A DNA stretch of 64,000 nt. Source: Pseudomonadota bacterium (lineage in GTDB: Bacteria; Desulfobacterota; Binatia; Binatales; Binataceae). A program made the position numbers and the translations under genes. Each line of letters starts with the position of its first letter. The first letter of the stretch is position 1. Positions 28,284 to 34,729 of the stretch are shown in pieces. A model generated the notes under the pieces. That model saw only the letters and a program-made list of their open reading frames with translations, was not told the DNA's origin and ran no database searches. The DNA lies in assembly GCA_021323945.1 (NCBI GenBank), contig JAJPKA010000003.1, positions 1 through 64,000 on the forward strand. Direction: 5' to 3'.

Positions 28284-29066
28284 ATGATCCGGCGGGATAA
28301 AACAAACTATGTTATTCAATCGGTAGCGCATTCTCTCGACGTGCTCGAACAGTTCGCCGGCGAAGCCGAGGAGCTCGGCGTCACGGAGCTATCTAAACGG
28401 CTCAAACTTCACAAAAACAATGTCTTTCGCCTGCTCGCGACCCTTGAGGCACGTGGCTACATCGAGCAAAACCGTGCGAGCGAGAACTACCGGCTCGGAA
28501 TCAAGTGCCTCCAACTGGGCCGCCACTACATCGAGCGGATGGGACTAGTGAAACAGGCACGCCCTCTTCTCGAAGATATCGCTCGCAGAGCTCGCGAGAC
28601 CGCCTTCGTTGCAATCGCGCGGGGAGACGGCGTGGTCGCCATCGAAGCGGCCGAACCAGTCGACCGCATGGTTCGCATTGCTCCCCCCATCGGCCATGTA
28701 CTTCCACTTCATTGCACAGCCATGGGCAAGGCTTGCCTCGCTTTTGACACCCAGGAACACCTTCGCATGGGACTACCGGAACAGCTGGAACGGTTCACGC
28801 CACGCACTATAACCGAGCGCAGCGCTTTGCTCGAACAGCTCAATTGTATCGCCAGCCAAGGCTATTCGGTCGACTTCGGCGAATACTTCGAGGATGTGAC
28901 GTCTCTGGCGGTGCCGGTCCGCGATTACACTCGTGCGGTCATTGGCTCTCTGGCACTCGCCGGCCCCTGCTACCGTATCTCGACCGACCGGATCAAGCAG
29001 GAACTCGCGCCATTGGTACTGGAGGTCGGGCGAGAGCTTTCCTACCGCCTCGGTTACAATGAATAA
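28284..29066 (+). CDS. IclR-family transcriptional regulator
   Basis: 260 aa: N-terminal winged helix-turn-helix (SVAHSLDVLEQFAGEAEELG, VTELSKRLKLHKNNVFRLLATLEARGYIEQ) and the C-terminal IclR effector domain (ARETAFVAIARGDGVVAIEAAEP, LPLHCTAMGKACLA, GYSVDFGEYFEDVTSLAVPV). IclR regulators often bind carboxylic acids. It precedes etfB by 204 bp on the same strand, so it may control the electron-transfer flavoprotein operon; that is inferred from position only. Confidence 0.93.
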   Translation: MIRRDKTNYVIQSVAHSLDVLEQFAGEAEELGVTELSKRLKLHKNNVFRLLATLEARGYIEQNRASENYRLGIKCLQLGRHYIERMGLVKQARPLLEDIARRARETAFVAIARGDGVVAIEAAEPVDRMVRIAPPIGHVLPLHCTAMGKACLAFDTQEHLRMGLPEQLERFTPRTITERSALLEQLNCIASQGYSVDFGEYFEDVTSLAVPVRDYTRAVIGSLALAGPCYRISTDRIKQELAPLVLEVGRELSYRLGYNE

Positions 29067-29094
29067 TAGCTAGCATCGAGCGGGCAGTGCGGCT

Positions 29095-29212
29095 GGCCGC
29101 GGAGAGCGGCCGTCGGCCGTGCGACTCGGCCGTCTGCAGTCCGTTCCCGAACGGAATCTTGACCGGTAGAAATTTAACCGTGCTCATCCACCGACCCCGC
29201 GAATGCGGGTCG
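29095..29212 (+). repeat. Four consecutive hairpins between iclR and etfB
   Basis: Four inverted repeats follow one another: GGCCGC/GCGGCC (29095-29111), GGCCG/CGGCC (29115-29131), TCCGTT/AACGGA with a 4-nt loop (29140-29155), and CGACCCCGC/GCGGGTCG with a 4-nt loop and one bulged C (29192-29212). None has a clear T-tract. They may stop iclR transcription or form a structured leader of etfB. Confidence 0.45.
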
Positions 29213-29270
29213 AAAGTTGAGTCATCGACGACAAAAATCACAAATCAGCATAATTTAGGGTCCCATCATT

Positions 29271-30020
29271 ATGAAAATCCTGGTTCCCATAAAACGCGTG
29301 CCCGACCCGGCAACCACCATTCGCGTACTACCAGACGGCAGCGGCATAGCGACGGACAACATCAAATGGGTAATCAATCCGTTCGACGAGATTGCTTTGG
29401 AAGAAGCGCTTCGGATCAAAGAACGGCAAGGTGCGGGTGACGTGGTCCTGGTCTCTATCGGCCAGCAGAGCTGGCAGGAACAATTGCGCACCGGTTTGGC
29501 GATGGGCGCCGATCGCGCCATCCTGGTCAAAGCAGAGCAACCCGTTGATACCTTCGCCGTCGCCCGTATTCTCGCCAAAATAGTCGCCGATGAGAAACCC
29601 GAACTAGTCATAATTGGCAAGCAAGCGATCGACGACGACTCCAACCAGGTCGGGCAGATCTTGGCCGAGCTCCTGGGCTGGCCTCAGGCGACCTTTGCGT
29701 CGAAAATCGAGATTGCCGACGGACGTTGCACGGTGATCCGAGAGGCGGACGGAGGCTTGGAAACGGTCGCCTTTACGCTGCCGGCCGTAATTACCACTGA
29801 CTTGCGCCTGAATGAGCCCCGATATGCATCGTTACCGGGCATTATGAAGGCTCGCAAAAAGCCCCTCAAAGAGATCGCGGTCGACACCCTAGGTCTTGAC
29901 CTGCATCCGAGAGTGAAGATCAAGGCGATGAAGGCTCCCCAAAAACGGCAGGCGGGCCGTAAACTCAGCTCCGTTCAGGAATTGGTGCAAGCACTCCACA
30001 CCGAGGCCAAGGTAATTTAA
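29271..30020 (+). CDS. etfB: Electron transfer flavoprotein beta subunit
   Basis: 249 aa, full length. It opens MKILVPIKRVPDP and has the signature IKWVINPFDEIALEEALRI and the loop VIIGKQAIDDDSNQVGQILAELLGWPQ (split around residues 112-138). EtfB pairs with EtfA to take electrons from acyl-CoA and related dehydrogenases. etfA follows after 144 bp and a membrane Fe-S quinone reductase after that. Nothing in sequence marks it as the bifurcating type with confidence. Confidence 0.97.
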   Translation: MKILVPIKRVPDPATTIRVLPDGSGIATDNIKWVINPFDEIALEEALRIKERQGAGDVVLVSIGQQSWQEQLRTGLAMGADRAILVKAEQPVDTFAVARILAKIVADEKPELVIIGKQAIDDDSNQVGQILAELLGWPQATFASKIEIADGRCTVIREADGGLETVAFTLPAVITTDLRLNEPRYASLPGIMKARKKPLKEIAVDTLGLDLHPRVKIKAMKAPQKRQAGRKLSSVQELVQALHTEAKVI

Positions 30021-30164
30021 TCCGTCGTGCAACGTCCCGACCACGCAGAGAGACCTTACCAGCTCTCTTATCTCTTCGACTCGGAGAGCTTCGCGGACCG
30101 ACGGCCCCACTGCAGAACCTGGGGTGATGACGCTTTCTTGTGTACTTGTAAAGGATGAAAATCG

Positions 30165-31136
30165 ATGGGTGACGTACTCGTTCTTGCCGAACATCGCGAT
30201 GGCCACTTCCCGAAGACGACCCTGGTAGGCATCAACGCCGGTCTCGAGATGGCGCGTAAACAAGGCGGCAATTGTCTGGCTGTCGCGCTCGGTGACAATC
30301 TCGACGGCCTGCTTGCGGACCTGGCTCGGTACGGTACCGCAAAGGTTATCGGACTTGAAGATGCACGCCTCGTCCATCCGATGGCGGATGCTGTGGCTCA
30401 GGCCGTAGCTGCGTTAGTTAAGAAAATCGGCATCCAAACCGTGATGGCCACGGCGACAGCCATGGCCAAGGATGTGATGCCGCGCATTGCTGCCCGCCTC
30501 GACGCTCCGATGGCCTCGGAAATCATCGCAATCAACGACGATGGAAGTCTGGTCCGGCCGATGTACGCCGGCAACGTGCTGGCGACGATCGAGCTGGAGG
30601 GCCCGGTGCGGGTGGTTACTGTTCGTAGCACCGCCTTCGACGCCGCAGCTGTGAGCGACAAGCCTGCCCCGATTGAGAAGCTAAAGGCCGAACTCGATCC
30701 TTCCAACCTGAAGATGGAATTTGTCGCATTCAACCAGACCAAGAGTGATCGACCCCAGCTGACCGAGGCGAGGATTGTCGTTTCGGGAGGGCGTGGGTTG
30801 CGCTCTGGTGAGAACTTCAAGACAGTCCTGGAACCGCTGGTCGACGAACTCGGCGCTGCCATGGGAGCCAGCCGAGCTGCCGTAGACGCTGGCTTCGTCC
30901 CGAATGATTTACAGGTCGGTCAAACTGGCAAGGTGGTGGCCCCTGAGCTGTACGTCGCAGTTGGTATCTCCGGCGCGATCCAACACTTAGCCGGGATGAA
31001 AGATTCCAAGACAATCGTCGCAATCAACAAAGACGAAGAAGCGCCGATCTTCAGCGTCGCCGATTTCGGGTTGGTGGCTGATCTGTTCAAAGCAGTCCCG
31101 GAAATGACCGAAGAGCTGAAGAAGCTGAAGCACTGA
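30165..31136 (+). CDS. etfA: Electron transfer flavoprotein alpha subunit
   Basis: 323 aa. Starts [20 protein letters not shown]. The C-terminal FAD-binding domain is clear: [78 protein letters not shown] (each read in order from about residue 205). AAGGATG lies just before the ATG. Together with EtfB it forms the soluble carrier that reduces the membrane protein encoded downstream. Confidence 0.97.
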
Positions 31137-31201
31137 CCCGCTCCGGAACGGTGCGGCTTGTCAATTTCCTCATTGCCCTTAGCAGGACGTAGTGGAACAC
31201 G

Positions 31202-33265
31202 ATGATTACGGCGATTCTCTTTACGCTTTGCATGGCGGTTGCCGTGGGGGTCTTCTTCTACCAGCTCTGGCGCCGCTTCCAGTTGCTGCGTAGTGCCGCG
31301 CCGGTCTCACGTTTCGATCGCATTCCGGAACGGATCCGCACGGTACTGGTGTACGCGTTTGGTCAGCGGAAGTTCGTGCGCAGGAATCCAGGAGCCGAGC
31401 GGTCTGCCGGATGGATGCACTTTTTTATCTTTTGGGGCTTTTTCGTCCTTAGCATCCAGATTCTGACGATGTTCGGCCGCGCGTATTCCGATTCATTCGT
31501 GGTCCCGGGCTTCGGCCCGCATCTTCTGGGCCGCCCTTATTCTCTGCTGCGCGACTTCATGGAAGTGGCAGTCCTGTTCTGGGTGGGAGTGGGGCTGGTC
31601 CGCTGGATCTCACATGCGCCTCGACTTTACGGCTTTCTTCCACCCGAGAGGGGTGTGCGCGACAAATCGCACCTGGAGGCCTACGTAATTCTGATTTTCA
31701 TCGGGCTAATCATGGTGGCCGGCCTGATCTACGACGGCGGGCGAATCGCGGCTCGTTCCGAAAACGCACAGCAGATTGGCGGGGCGCAGTGGGCACCCTT
31801 CTCCACCTTGGTTGGCCTCGGCCTAGTGAAAACTCTCGGCGTAACTTACGCCCATCAGGCGAGCGACGTCGCCTGGTGGGTGCACAATCTCATTGTTCTA
31901 GTCTTTCTGGACCTGCTGCCGCCGTCGAAACACTTCCATATTATCACCGCAATTCCAAACATCTTCTTCTCCAAACTTGAGCCCAAGGGGCAGCTATCGA
32001 AGCAGGACCTCGAAAATGCTTCACGCTTCGGCACCTCGCACATTGATCACTTCACGTGGAAACAGGTGCTCGATATGTTCAGTTGCACCGAATGTGGTCG
32101 CTGCTCCTCGAATTGCCCCGCCACCGCCACCCAAAAGCCCTTGGCTCCGCGCCAACTGCTTCTCGATTTGCGGGACTATCTCTACCGGCATCAGGACGAG
32201 ATGATTAAAAAGCGAAGTCGTCGGGGTAGCGAGAATGACACGGATGTGGCGGAGGTCGGCGAAAACATCGTTGGTTCGGTGATCCAAGACGAAACGCTCT
32301 GGTCGTGTCTCACTTGCCGGGCCTGCGAAGAGGCATGCCCCCCGATGATCGAGTACGTGGATAAGATCGTTGACATGCGCCGTCATTTGGTACAAGAGGA
32401 ATCACGTTTTCCCAAGGAACTTACCCGCACCTTCAAAAACATGGAAACACAGTCTAATCCTTGGGGGATCGATTCCGAGCAACGCTTCGAATGGGCTGCG
32501 GGGATGAATATACCAACTCTCGCGGACAAGCCTGACGCCGAATTCCTTTACTACGTCGGCTGCGCCGGCTCCTACGACGACCGCAACAAAAAAACGACGC
32601 AGGCGTTCGTCCGTGTGCTCCAAAAAGCCGGGGTAGATTTTGCCTGCCTCGGGCGCGAGGAACTTTGCAACGGCGAAACCGCACGCCGGCTCGGTAACGA
32701 GTACCTATATCAATCGATGGCGCAGATGCTGATTGAAACCCTCAACAACTACCGCGTTCGCAAGATCATCGTGAACTGTCCCCATTGCTTCAACACCATC
32801 AAAAACGAGTTTCCGCAATTCGGCGGCTCGTACGAGGTCATTCATGCCTCCGACCTGGTTCATCAACTGGTCACTTCGGGACGTCTCAAGATCGCACCGG
32901 AATTCTCCAAGCGAACCGTCTATCACGACTCCTGTTACTATGGCCGATACAACGACGTATTCGATGAGCCCAGGATGTTGCTCAGCCGCGCGGGAGCTCG
33001 GGTTCACGAAATGCAACGCCATCGTAAATTCGCTATGTGCTGCGGTGCTGGCGGCGGCCGGATGTGGATCGAGGAAGACCCGAACAAACGGGTAAATCTG
33101 CTTCGCACCGAGCAGGCGCTGCAAACCGATCCCGAAGTCATCGCCGTCTCCTGTCCCTACTGTATGACGATGCTTAGCGACGGCATTAAGGCCAAGCAGC
33201 TCGAAGACAAGGTCCAGACCCTCGACGTGATGGAAATCATAGACCAAGCCACTAGGTCGGCCTGA
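31202..33265 (+). CDS. Membrane Fe-S ETF:quinone oxidoreductase (EtfD/EMO type)
   Basis: 687 aa. The N-terminal ~270 residues hold about six membrane helices of a NarI-like heme b domain with several His. Two 4Fe-4S motifs follow: [13 protein letters not shown] at about 294 and [13 protein letters not shown] at about 368. The C-terminal half has two CCG (HdrB-type) domains: [52 protein letters not shown] and [12 protein letters not shown]. This is the architecture of the membrane oxidoreductases that link EtfAB to (mena)quinone, as in M. tuberculosis EtfD and syntrophic fatty-acid degraders. It lies 65 bp after etfA. It replaces the flavin-type ETF-QO in this context. Confidence 0.9.
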
Positions 33266-33633
33266 GGCAGCGTCGTAAAGAAGCGTTCAGAGGCCAATCA
33301 AATTTACTCGACGGCTTGATATGGGGCGTCGGTTGTGTGACCGGGATGCTCGCGTTTCAGAAGGTGTTCTGACATACCGTAACTCGCCGAGCGCGGCGGC
33401 AGGCTTGTCAGTCAGCCCGTTCCTTCACTCCTTTTGCTCTGCTCGGAGGCGCGCGGGCAGACCTCGCAAGCTAATCTTGGAGCCCATCGGCGTGACCTTT
33501 TTGTTGAGTCGTCGGCGATAGTTCAGTCGATCCCAACCAGCGACTATCCGCCCAGCCAACTTCGGGCGCTCAGAACGAAACGGGCGGATGGATTAATGCG
33601 CGAGATTGCCGCCGACTAGAAAAAACCCCTTTG
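33266..33633. other. Intergenic region downstream of the etf operon
   Basis: No frame in this first part of the 636-bp convergent gap looks like a protein; the longest is a 66-codon frame at 33321-33521 without a ribosome site. Bases 33620-33625 are an A-run that would read as a U-run on the minus strand. The remainder of the gap holds the candidate RNA and repeats listed next. Confidence 0.4.
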
Positions 33634-33788
33634 ACCGCTGTCAGCCTATCCAAGGCTGTGCTTGCAAGGTTAGCTTCGGAAATGCTATCGGGAGTCACCG
33701 GCCACACGCTGGGGGACCACACCTTCCCAAGCTCGGGGGATCGATATCGGGAAGGAATGACAGCGGTGGCACGGTGCTCACCTTTCTT
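33634..33788 (+). ncRNA. Candidate structured RNA with multistem fold
   Basis: A 10-bp perfect closing stem joins ACCGCTGTCA (33634-33643) and TGACAGCGGT (33758-33767). Inside it are a GCCT/AGGC hairpin (33644-33656), a TAGC/GCTA hairpin near 33671-33687, a GTC...GAC stem near 33694-33717, and a 7-bp stem CCTTCCC/GGGAAGG (33722-33755) two bases before the closing strand. A terminator-like hairpin follows at once. Nested, adjoining stems like this suggest a folded RNA rather than chance. It matches no class I can name (not tmRNA, RNase P or SRP by their signature sequences). The minus strand is possible too, with a U-run after the closing stem. No neighbouring gene starts downstream, so a riboswitch is unlikely and a stand-alone RNA is favoured. 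Confidence 0.4.
33765..33788 (+). terminator. Rho-independent terminator-like hairpin
   Basis: GGTGGCA, loop CGG, then TGC-T-CACC (33765-33782, one bulged T) followed by TTTCTT. It shares three bases with the closing stem of the candidate RNA. It could end that RNA or the etf operon transcript. Confidence 0.5.
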
Positions 33789-33815: not shown

Positions 33816-33850
33816 ACTGGCATTTTTTATACTGGTATTGTCAATGCCAG
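33816..33850. repeat. Direct plus inverted repeat cluster
   Basis: ACTGGCATT (33816-33824) is repeated as ACTGGTATT 15 bp on (33831-33839) and inverted as AATGCCAG (33843-33850). It lies between two convergent genes just after a TTAATTAATTAA run. It looks like an operator, but no gene starts next to it. Confidence 0.35.
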
Positions 33851-33901: not shown

Positions 33902-34729
33902 TCAGTTCAAACGCGATACCTGCTGAGTAAGCCGAATAATCGCGTCGCGAACCGTATCGGCGGCGGGGTGATCAGGCGCTTGGGCCAGAAAACTCTGAAA
34001 GTCTTCGCGTGCCGCCGCAAAACACTCCATTCGTTCGTAAAGTATCGCTCGCTCAAGTAGCTCGTCGAGGGCTCGCGGATCGAGTATTAGAATGCGATCA
34101 AGGGCTGACAGCGTCCGCTGCCAATCAGCGCTCCGCGCATAGATGTTTTTAAGATTCCGCAGCATCCGCGTCAGAATGTGACGAGTGCTGACTGGTTTCA
34201 ACATGTCCGGATGGAGATCCACCGGCTGCCGATAGATTTGCTCCAGGCGCGACCGAATCTCGTCGAGATCGAGGATCACACCTTCGTTAAACGGATCGAT
34301 CACCAATTCGCCGCGATCGTCGATGGCTTTGACCAAAAAATGCGCGGGAAAGGAGACTCCGTAAAGGTTCAGGCCAAGGCGGCGTCCCACCTCGATATAA
34401 ATGACGGAGAGCGAGATTGGTATCCCGAGACGGCGCTCTAATACGTCGTTGAGAAAGGAATTACGGGGATCGCCGTATTGTTCGCGATTGCCTTCAAAGC
34501 CCTTTTGGTCAAACAGGAATTCGGAAAGGCTTTGGATCTTCTCGACGGTATCGTTAGCCTTGCGCACGGCGGGCTCGGCCTCGCGAGAGAGCTCAGCCAA
34601 CTTATCCAAATATTTTTCCAGATCGAGGTCGGGGTATTCTTCTTTGGCAATGAGCAGAGCACCGCGCGCCAGGGGGATTGGCTCTCGTGCCCCTAGCATT
34701 GTAAATTCGCGCCGCAAACTCTCGTTCAT
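33902..34729 (-). CDS. SirB1-family transglutaminase-like protein with TPR-like C-terminus
   Basis: 275 aa. The core LFDQKGFEGNREQYGDPRNS, then FLNDVLERRLGIPISLSVIY, GLNLYGVSFPAHFLVK and ELVIDPFNEG are the conserved SirB1 (YchA) blocks, a transglutaminase-like fold. The C-terminal ~90 residues form helical repeats (NLKNIYARSADWQRTLSALDRI, ALDELLERAILYERM). Family function is not settled. Leftward, downstream of queG by about 100 bp. Confidence 0.9.
   Translation of the reverse strand: MNESLRREFTMLGAREPIPLARGALLIAKEEYPDLDLEKYLDKLAELSREAEPAVRKANDTVEKIQSLSEFLFDQKGFEGNREQYGDPRNSFLNDVLERRLGIPISLSVIYIEVGRRLGLNLYGVSFPAHFLVKAIDDRGELVIDPFNEGVILDLDEIRSRLEQIYRQPVDLHPDMLKPVSTRHILTRMLRNLKNIYARSADWQRTLSALDRILILDPRALDELLERAILYERMECFAAAREDFQSFLAQAPDHPAADTVRDAIIRLTQQVSRLN

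Follow-up and report, generated by a model that had tools for sequence, protein, structure and literature searches.

Does the gap between two genes of an uncultured soil bacterium hold a structured RNA, and if so, what kind of RNA is it? The host belongs to the Binataceae (class Binatia, Candidatus Binatota), and the window is the whole stretch of 64,000 nucleotides that we analysed. A literature search found no work on regulatory RNA in Binatota; noncoding RNA was named only within an annotation pipeline. The first-pass annotation of positions 33634-33788 had proposed a stand-alone RNA between convergent genes, closed by a perfect 10-bp stem and followed by its own terminator. On one flank lies an Fe-S oxidoreductase gene (31202-33265, plus strand) and on the other a SirB1-type gene (33902-34729, minus strand) encoding a transglutaminase-like core with TPR (PF13369, E 2e-51; PF13371, E 1.9e-21). 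These two genes do converge in the window, but the arrangement does not extend to the single congener (G001) that carries a related sequence: there, beyond the element, lies an MFS transporter gene codirectional with the SirB1-type gene. The SirB1-type protein shares 84 per cent identity with its counterpart in the congener and is the only neighbour that we saw in common, and the Fe-S oxidoreductase finds only a weak partial match there (25 per cent identity). The linkage of element and SirB1-type gene is kept while the gene on the opposite flank differs. As a side observation, an IclR-like regulator, EtfB/EtfA-like genes and the Fe-S oxidoreductase are clustered at 28284-33265, the IclR-like and EtfB/EtfA-like genes being named by eye from their translations.

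The letters of the 10-bp stem are present (ACCGCTGTCA at 33634-33643 and TGACAGCGGT at 33758-33767, spaced by 114 nt), but the stem does not hold up as a structure. Long pairing of this kind had been called rare by chance; with gaps of up to 130 nt we counted 14 perfect 10-bp inverted repeats in the window, and 20 resamples of it under a first-order Markov model held between 4 and 18. The pairing probability was 0.0 at all ten of its pairs, and enforcing the stem moved the minimum free energy from -68.7 to -59.9 kcal/mol, a cost of 8.8 kcal/mol. The 3' arm is also used by a more stable hairpin, and the stem is absent from the congener sequence. Given its chance-level frequency, its zero pairing probability and its absence from the congener, we rejected it. 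The proposed plus-strand terminator fared similarly: TTTCTT (33783-33788) does follow a 5-pair hairpin (33765-33782), but such arrangements number one in the window against 0.9 expected, and nothing like this T run immediately follows the hairpin of the congener, so this candidate was dropped as well. Nevertheless, the 191-nt region as a whole folds better than its shuffles (z -2.46 on the plus strand and -4.35 on the minus strand), owing to a hairpin at 33690-33782 and not to the 10-bp stem. A stem spotted by eye may thus overlie an element that is real but different.

This main conserved hairpin, supported by conservation, kept pairs and z-scores, we place tentatively on the minus strand. 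Its irregular lower stem of 20 bp has arms at 33690-33711 and 33761-33782 (plus coordinates); in plus letters, GGGAG, CACCG, GCCAC and CGCTG pair with CAGCG, GTGGC, CGGTG and CTC-CC. Above the lower stem comes an asymmetric bubble and then an upper stem formed by 33722-33728 with 33749-33755. This inner stem is the CCTTCCC/GGGAAGG pairing of 7 bp that had been picked out correctly beforehand; in the congener it is broken by a deletion. Across the core (33686-33784), 86 of 97 ungapped columns are identical in the two genomes, with 3 gap columns. For comparison, the codons of the SirB1-type gene are identical at 239 of 276 first positions, 262 of 276 second positions and 112 of 276 third positions, and at 45 of 116 fourfold sites. 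With silent sites near saturation, such identity in the core indicates strong selection, and the element must therefore be useful to the genus.

The differences that do occur in the lower stem respect its pairing. Four unambiguous substitutions form two compensatory pairs. The changes run from C-G to U-A, from A-U to G-C and from G-C to A-U. Every lower-stem substitution in alignment A2 sits in a kept pair (three pairs), the third of which depends on gap placement: it is counted in A2 and falls in an unpaired cell in alignment A3, whereas the other two are independent of gaps. The chance of obtaining two kept pairs from four random substitutions in a 20-bp stem is about 2e-4, a figure calculated post hoc with the data already seen. 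When the partner strand was slid by 1-3 columns, pairing fell from 97.4-100 per cent to 32.5-54.0 per cent and no doubly changed pair was left. In the shuffle controls, 57 of 500 randomizations in one set and 127 of 500 in the other reached the observed scores; such controls are powerless because there are only two sequences. Conserved structure in this element is well supported, with the whole claim resting on the window and its congener. What lies here is a real, conserved, structured element that differs from the one first described, and this short hairpin, kept under strong conservation, is most likely a small RNA specific to the genus, so far in two genomes only.

What might such an RNA do? 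The predicted minus-strand fold leaves two UCCCCC runs open. One is in the bubble (33711-33716, minus strand), with its first five bases unpaired at a probability of 0.98-1.0 in both sequences, and the other is in the apical loop (33735-33740, minus strand), with its first five bases unpaired at a probability of 1.0 in both sequences and within a stretch identical in the two genomes. C runs on the minus strand are G runs on the plus strand, so the argument from the loops hinges on the strand. Both genomes also seem to do without two of the best-known post-transcriptional regulators, as Hfq and CsrA were found in neither (G000 and G001, at E 0.01; completeness 95.5 and 91 per cent), and another mode of action is therefore needed.

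The reading that we tentatively prefer is a minus-strand small RNA or 3'-UTR element whose C runs act as antisense to G-rich mRNA sites, similar in action to the 6C/B11 RNAs without being a member of that family. It would be transcribed codirectionally with the SirB1-type gene, whether as part of that gene's 3'-UTR, from which it may be cut out, or from its own promoter near a TATAAA. In the folded transcript, a small hairpin at the 5' end would be joined by a linker to a long irregular hairpin exposing both unpaired UCCCCC runs, and these runs could pair with G-rich sites, for example the Shine-Dalgarno sequences of mRNAs, without Hfq. Transcription, RNA ends, targets and effect are all what we infer here. 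It would be a bolder step, and one we regard as unlikely, to see in the element a new antisense RNA class that works independently of chaperones and belongs to one Binataceae genus, with two UCCCCC runs per hairpin, kept beside a SirB1-type gene in genomes where Hfq and CsrA were not found.

Among the genomes searched, the element is limited to two, both of one genus. A DNA search gave one convincing relative, the congener, at 79 per cent identity over 182 query bases, and a search of genome contigs returned the congener as its sole match. At E 0.5 and under stricter filters, model R1 matched two of 148 genomes from the class, both in the same genus and none in the family's other genera. The same count, two of 148, came from a 30-base pattern allowing 3 mismatches, which had no match among viral contigs. 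There was one match to the element per genome. In a sample of 395 phylum genomes that probably did not include the congener, model R1 at E 0.1 found the window's own genome and G432 (E 0.098); the latter match overlaps three listed open reading frames and was taken as chance. At E 1, the DNA search gave matches in 26 of the 41 family genomes, of which the best beyond the pair matched at E 0.0038 over 27 bases (G024). We took this as chance, together with a second match in the element's own genome (E 0.0076 over 42 bases). A 35-base match in G010 fell on 33514-33548, outside the element, and was dropped.

This distribution bears on a possible though improbable alternative, namely that the hairpin works only in cis, within the 3'-UTR of the SirB1-type mRNA, where it would protect the end or determine the stability of the message and have no trans target. 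The position would suit such a role: past the stop codon, a second, smaller hairpin begins at about 50 nt and the main hairpin at about 120 nt, in the same direction as the gene under the minus-strand reading, and the arrangement is linked in the congener. On the other hand, a hairpin with a protective role does not require loop sequence to be conserved, yet the apical loop is identical in both genomes and the bubble nearly so. Moreover, the element occurs in none of the 28 other SirB1-type loci of the family. The gene is present in 35 of the 41 genomes, and these 28 loci exclude the window and congener (2) and five without a locus. Their downstream stretches (700 nt each, apart from two of 498 and 691 nt) align to the element no better than shuffled sequence does, and model R1 gave no match in them below E 4.

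We turn next to the strand on which the antisense reading depends. The first-pass annotation had implied the plus strand; folding and the second hairpin favour minus. The main hairpin scored z -6.69 in the window and -5.27 in the congener on the minus strand, and -3.25 and -2.62, respectively, on the plus strand, though in longer minus-strand transcripts the scores drop to -3.45 and -3.96. The second hairpin lies at 33817-33850, on the 5' side of the main hairpin as read on the minus strand, and is identical at 30 of 37 columns, compared with 16 of 33 for the linker between the two. Its loop side carries ACCAGTATAAAA, common to window and congener, and folded alone it reached z -2.86 and -2.65. 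Two of its U-A pairs become U-G in the congener, so that pairing is kept on the minus strand and turns to mismatches on the plus strand. Its probability in the longer congener transcript was just 0.39-0.47. By our own estimate the minus strand, on which the SirB1-type gene also lies, is moderately favoured, with a sizeable minority of the weight left to the plus strand. As for the stand-alone RNA first proposed, a structured RNA is what the evidence supports, but on the minus strand, where it follows the SirB1-type gene, it could be a 3'-UTR element or an sRNA derived from a 3'-UTR instead of standing alone.

Neither a clear promoter nor a clear terminator was found on the minus strand. A TATAAA at 33826-33831 (minus strand), common to both genomes, is a possible -10 box; we saw no convincing -35 box near it, and a promoter scan gave no matches. 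A run of six Ts at 33620-33625 (minus strand) is a possible 3' end, and the congener too has a downstream T6, but the stretches preceding these runs do not outdo their shuffles in folding (z -0.43; 0.27 and 0.83). Separately, 33832-33850, beside the TATAAA, reads CTGGTATTGTCAATGCCAG, a near-perfect 19-bp palindrome of operator-like appearance whose symmetry is poorly kept in the congener.

A stand-alone RNA on the plus strand that presents GGA motifs is accordingly an explanation to which we give little weight. The hairpin forms on that strand too, as the z-scores above show, and in the window TTTCTT follows it. Against this stand the weaker fold in both species, the lack of a comparable T run in the congener, the two mismatched pairs in the second hairpin and the failure to find CsrA in either genome. 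In addition, on the upstream side of a plus-strand transcript only about 37 columns adjoining the core align.

Slightly less weight still goes to an element acting as DNA, such as a protein-binding inverted repeat, a recombination site or a cruciform. The compensatory changes would also fit a DNA hairpin, and the two genomes carry different genes on the far side of the element. A single match per genome speaks against it, as does a shared segment whose sole gene is the SirB1-type one, with no mobile gene in it, and the U-G pairs of the second hairpin suit RNA. A short peptide is likewise unlikely from the sequence, because the core contains indels that throw it out of frame. A minus-strand frame at about 33710-33782 does share its stop and some 18 preceding codons between the genomes, but a 2-nt indel shifts the frame ahead of these codons, two of the three substitutions within them alter the residue, and no common ATG, GTG or TTG start was seen.

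Returning to the small RNA reading, we compared the element with known classes and agree with the earlier view that it lies outside them. The Rfam search that had been suggested found no family at the gathering cut-off in the window, where there is also no tmRNA or tRNA. At E 10, the region and its homologue gave only chance-level matches to unrelated families, far below gathering scores (UCA1, snoTBR6 and mir-103 for the region; isrA and eiav_FSE for the homologue). The genome's SRP RNA (RF00169) is elsewhere, at C17:216032-216130, and has no match in the region.

The least probable explanation, which we consider very remote, is a strongly diverged 6S RNA of the Binataceae: none of 40 Binataceae genomes reaches the Rfam cut-off for 6S, while two of 38 genomes in the class have a 6S match (a clear one in G035, of another family, and a weak one in G045, of a third family), and the candidate resembles 6S RNA in forming a long hairpin interrupted by an internal bubble, but even at E 10 neither the region nor its homologue matches RF00013. 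In the genome itself RF00013 gave two weak matches (E 3.89 and 5.17), both on other contigs. The 6S RNA of the Binataceae is either lost or too diverged. In dimensions the two also differ: 6S RNA forms a hairpin some 180 nt long (187 model positions) with a large central bubble, whereas the candidate has a core of about 95 nt and a predicted bubble of about 5 by 12 nt, and was found in two genomes only, not in the family's other genera.

CsrA is the usual reader of GGA motifs, and RNAs of the CsrB/RsmZ type titrate it. The candidate's loops would show GGA motifs on the plus strand, but this strand is disfavoured, and with no CsrA found in either genome we rejected titration. The best-studied sRNAs derived from 3'-UTRs use Hfq or ProQ, whereas Hfq was not found here. 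The candidate does resemble such sRNAs, a group reviewed in PMC9438474, in being a structured RNA just 3' of a stop codon and, if on the minus strand, in having the same orientation as the gene.

The candidate is also like 6C and B11 in being a small RNA with two single-stranded C runs, on the minus strand only. B11 is a member of the 6C family, and these RNAs have two separate stem-loops with one C-rich loop each. In its account of B11 from M. abscessus, PMC10470900 describes two C-rich loops, either of which could be bound by a six-G tract in the 5' UTR of a target. The title of a study cited there has M. tuberculosis 6C binding its targets via C-rich loops without RNA chaperones (PMC10470900). 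The candidate comes from a phylum unrelated to the Actinobacteria of 6C and B11 and has no Rfam match, and its two runs share one long hairpin, where the bubble holds the first and the apical loop the second. Because of this differing architecture and the missing Rfam match, we did not file it as a member of 6C/B11 and propose only that it may act in a similar way.
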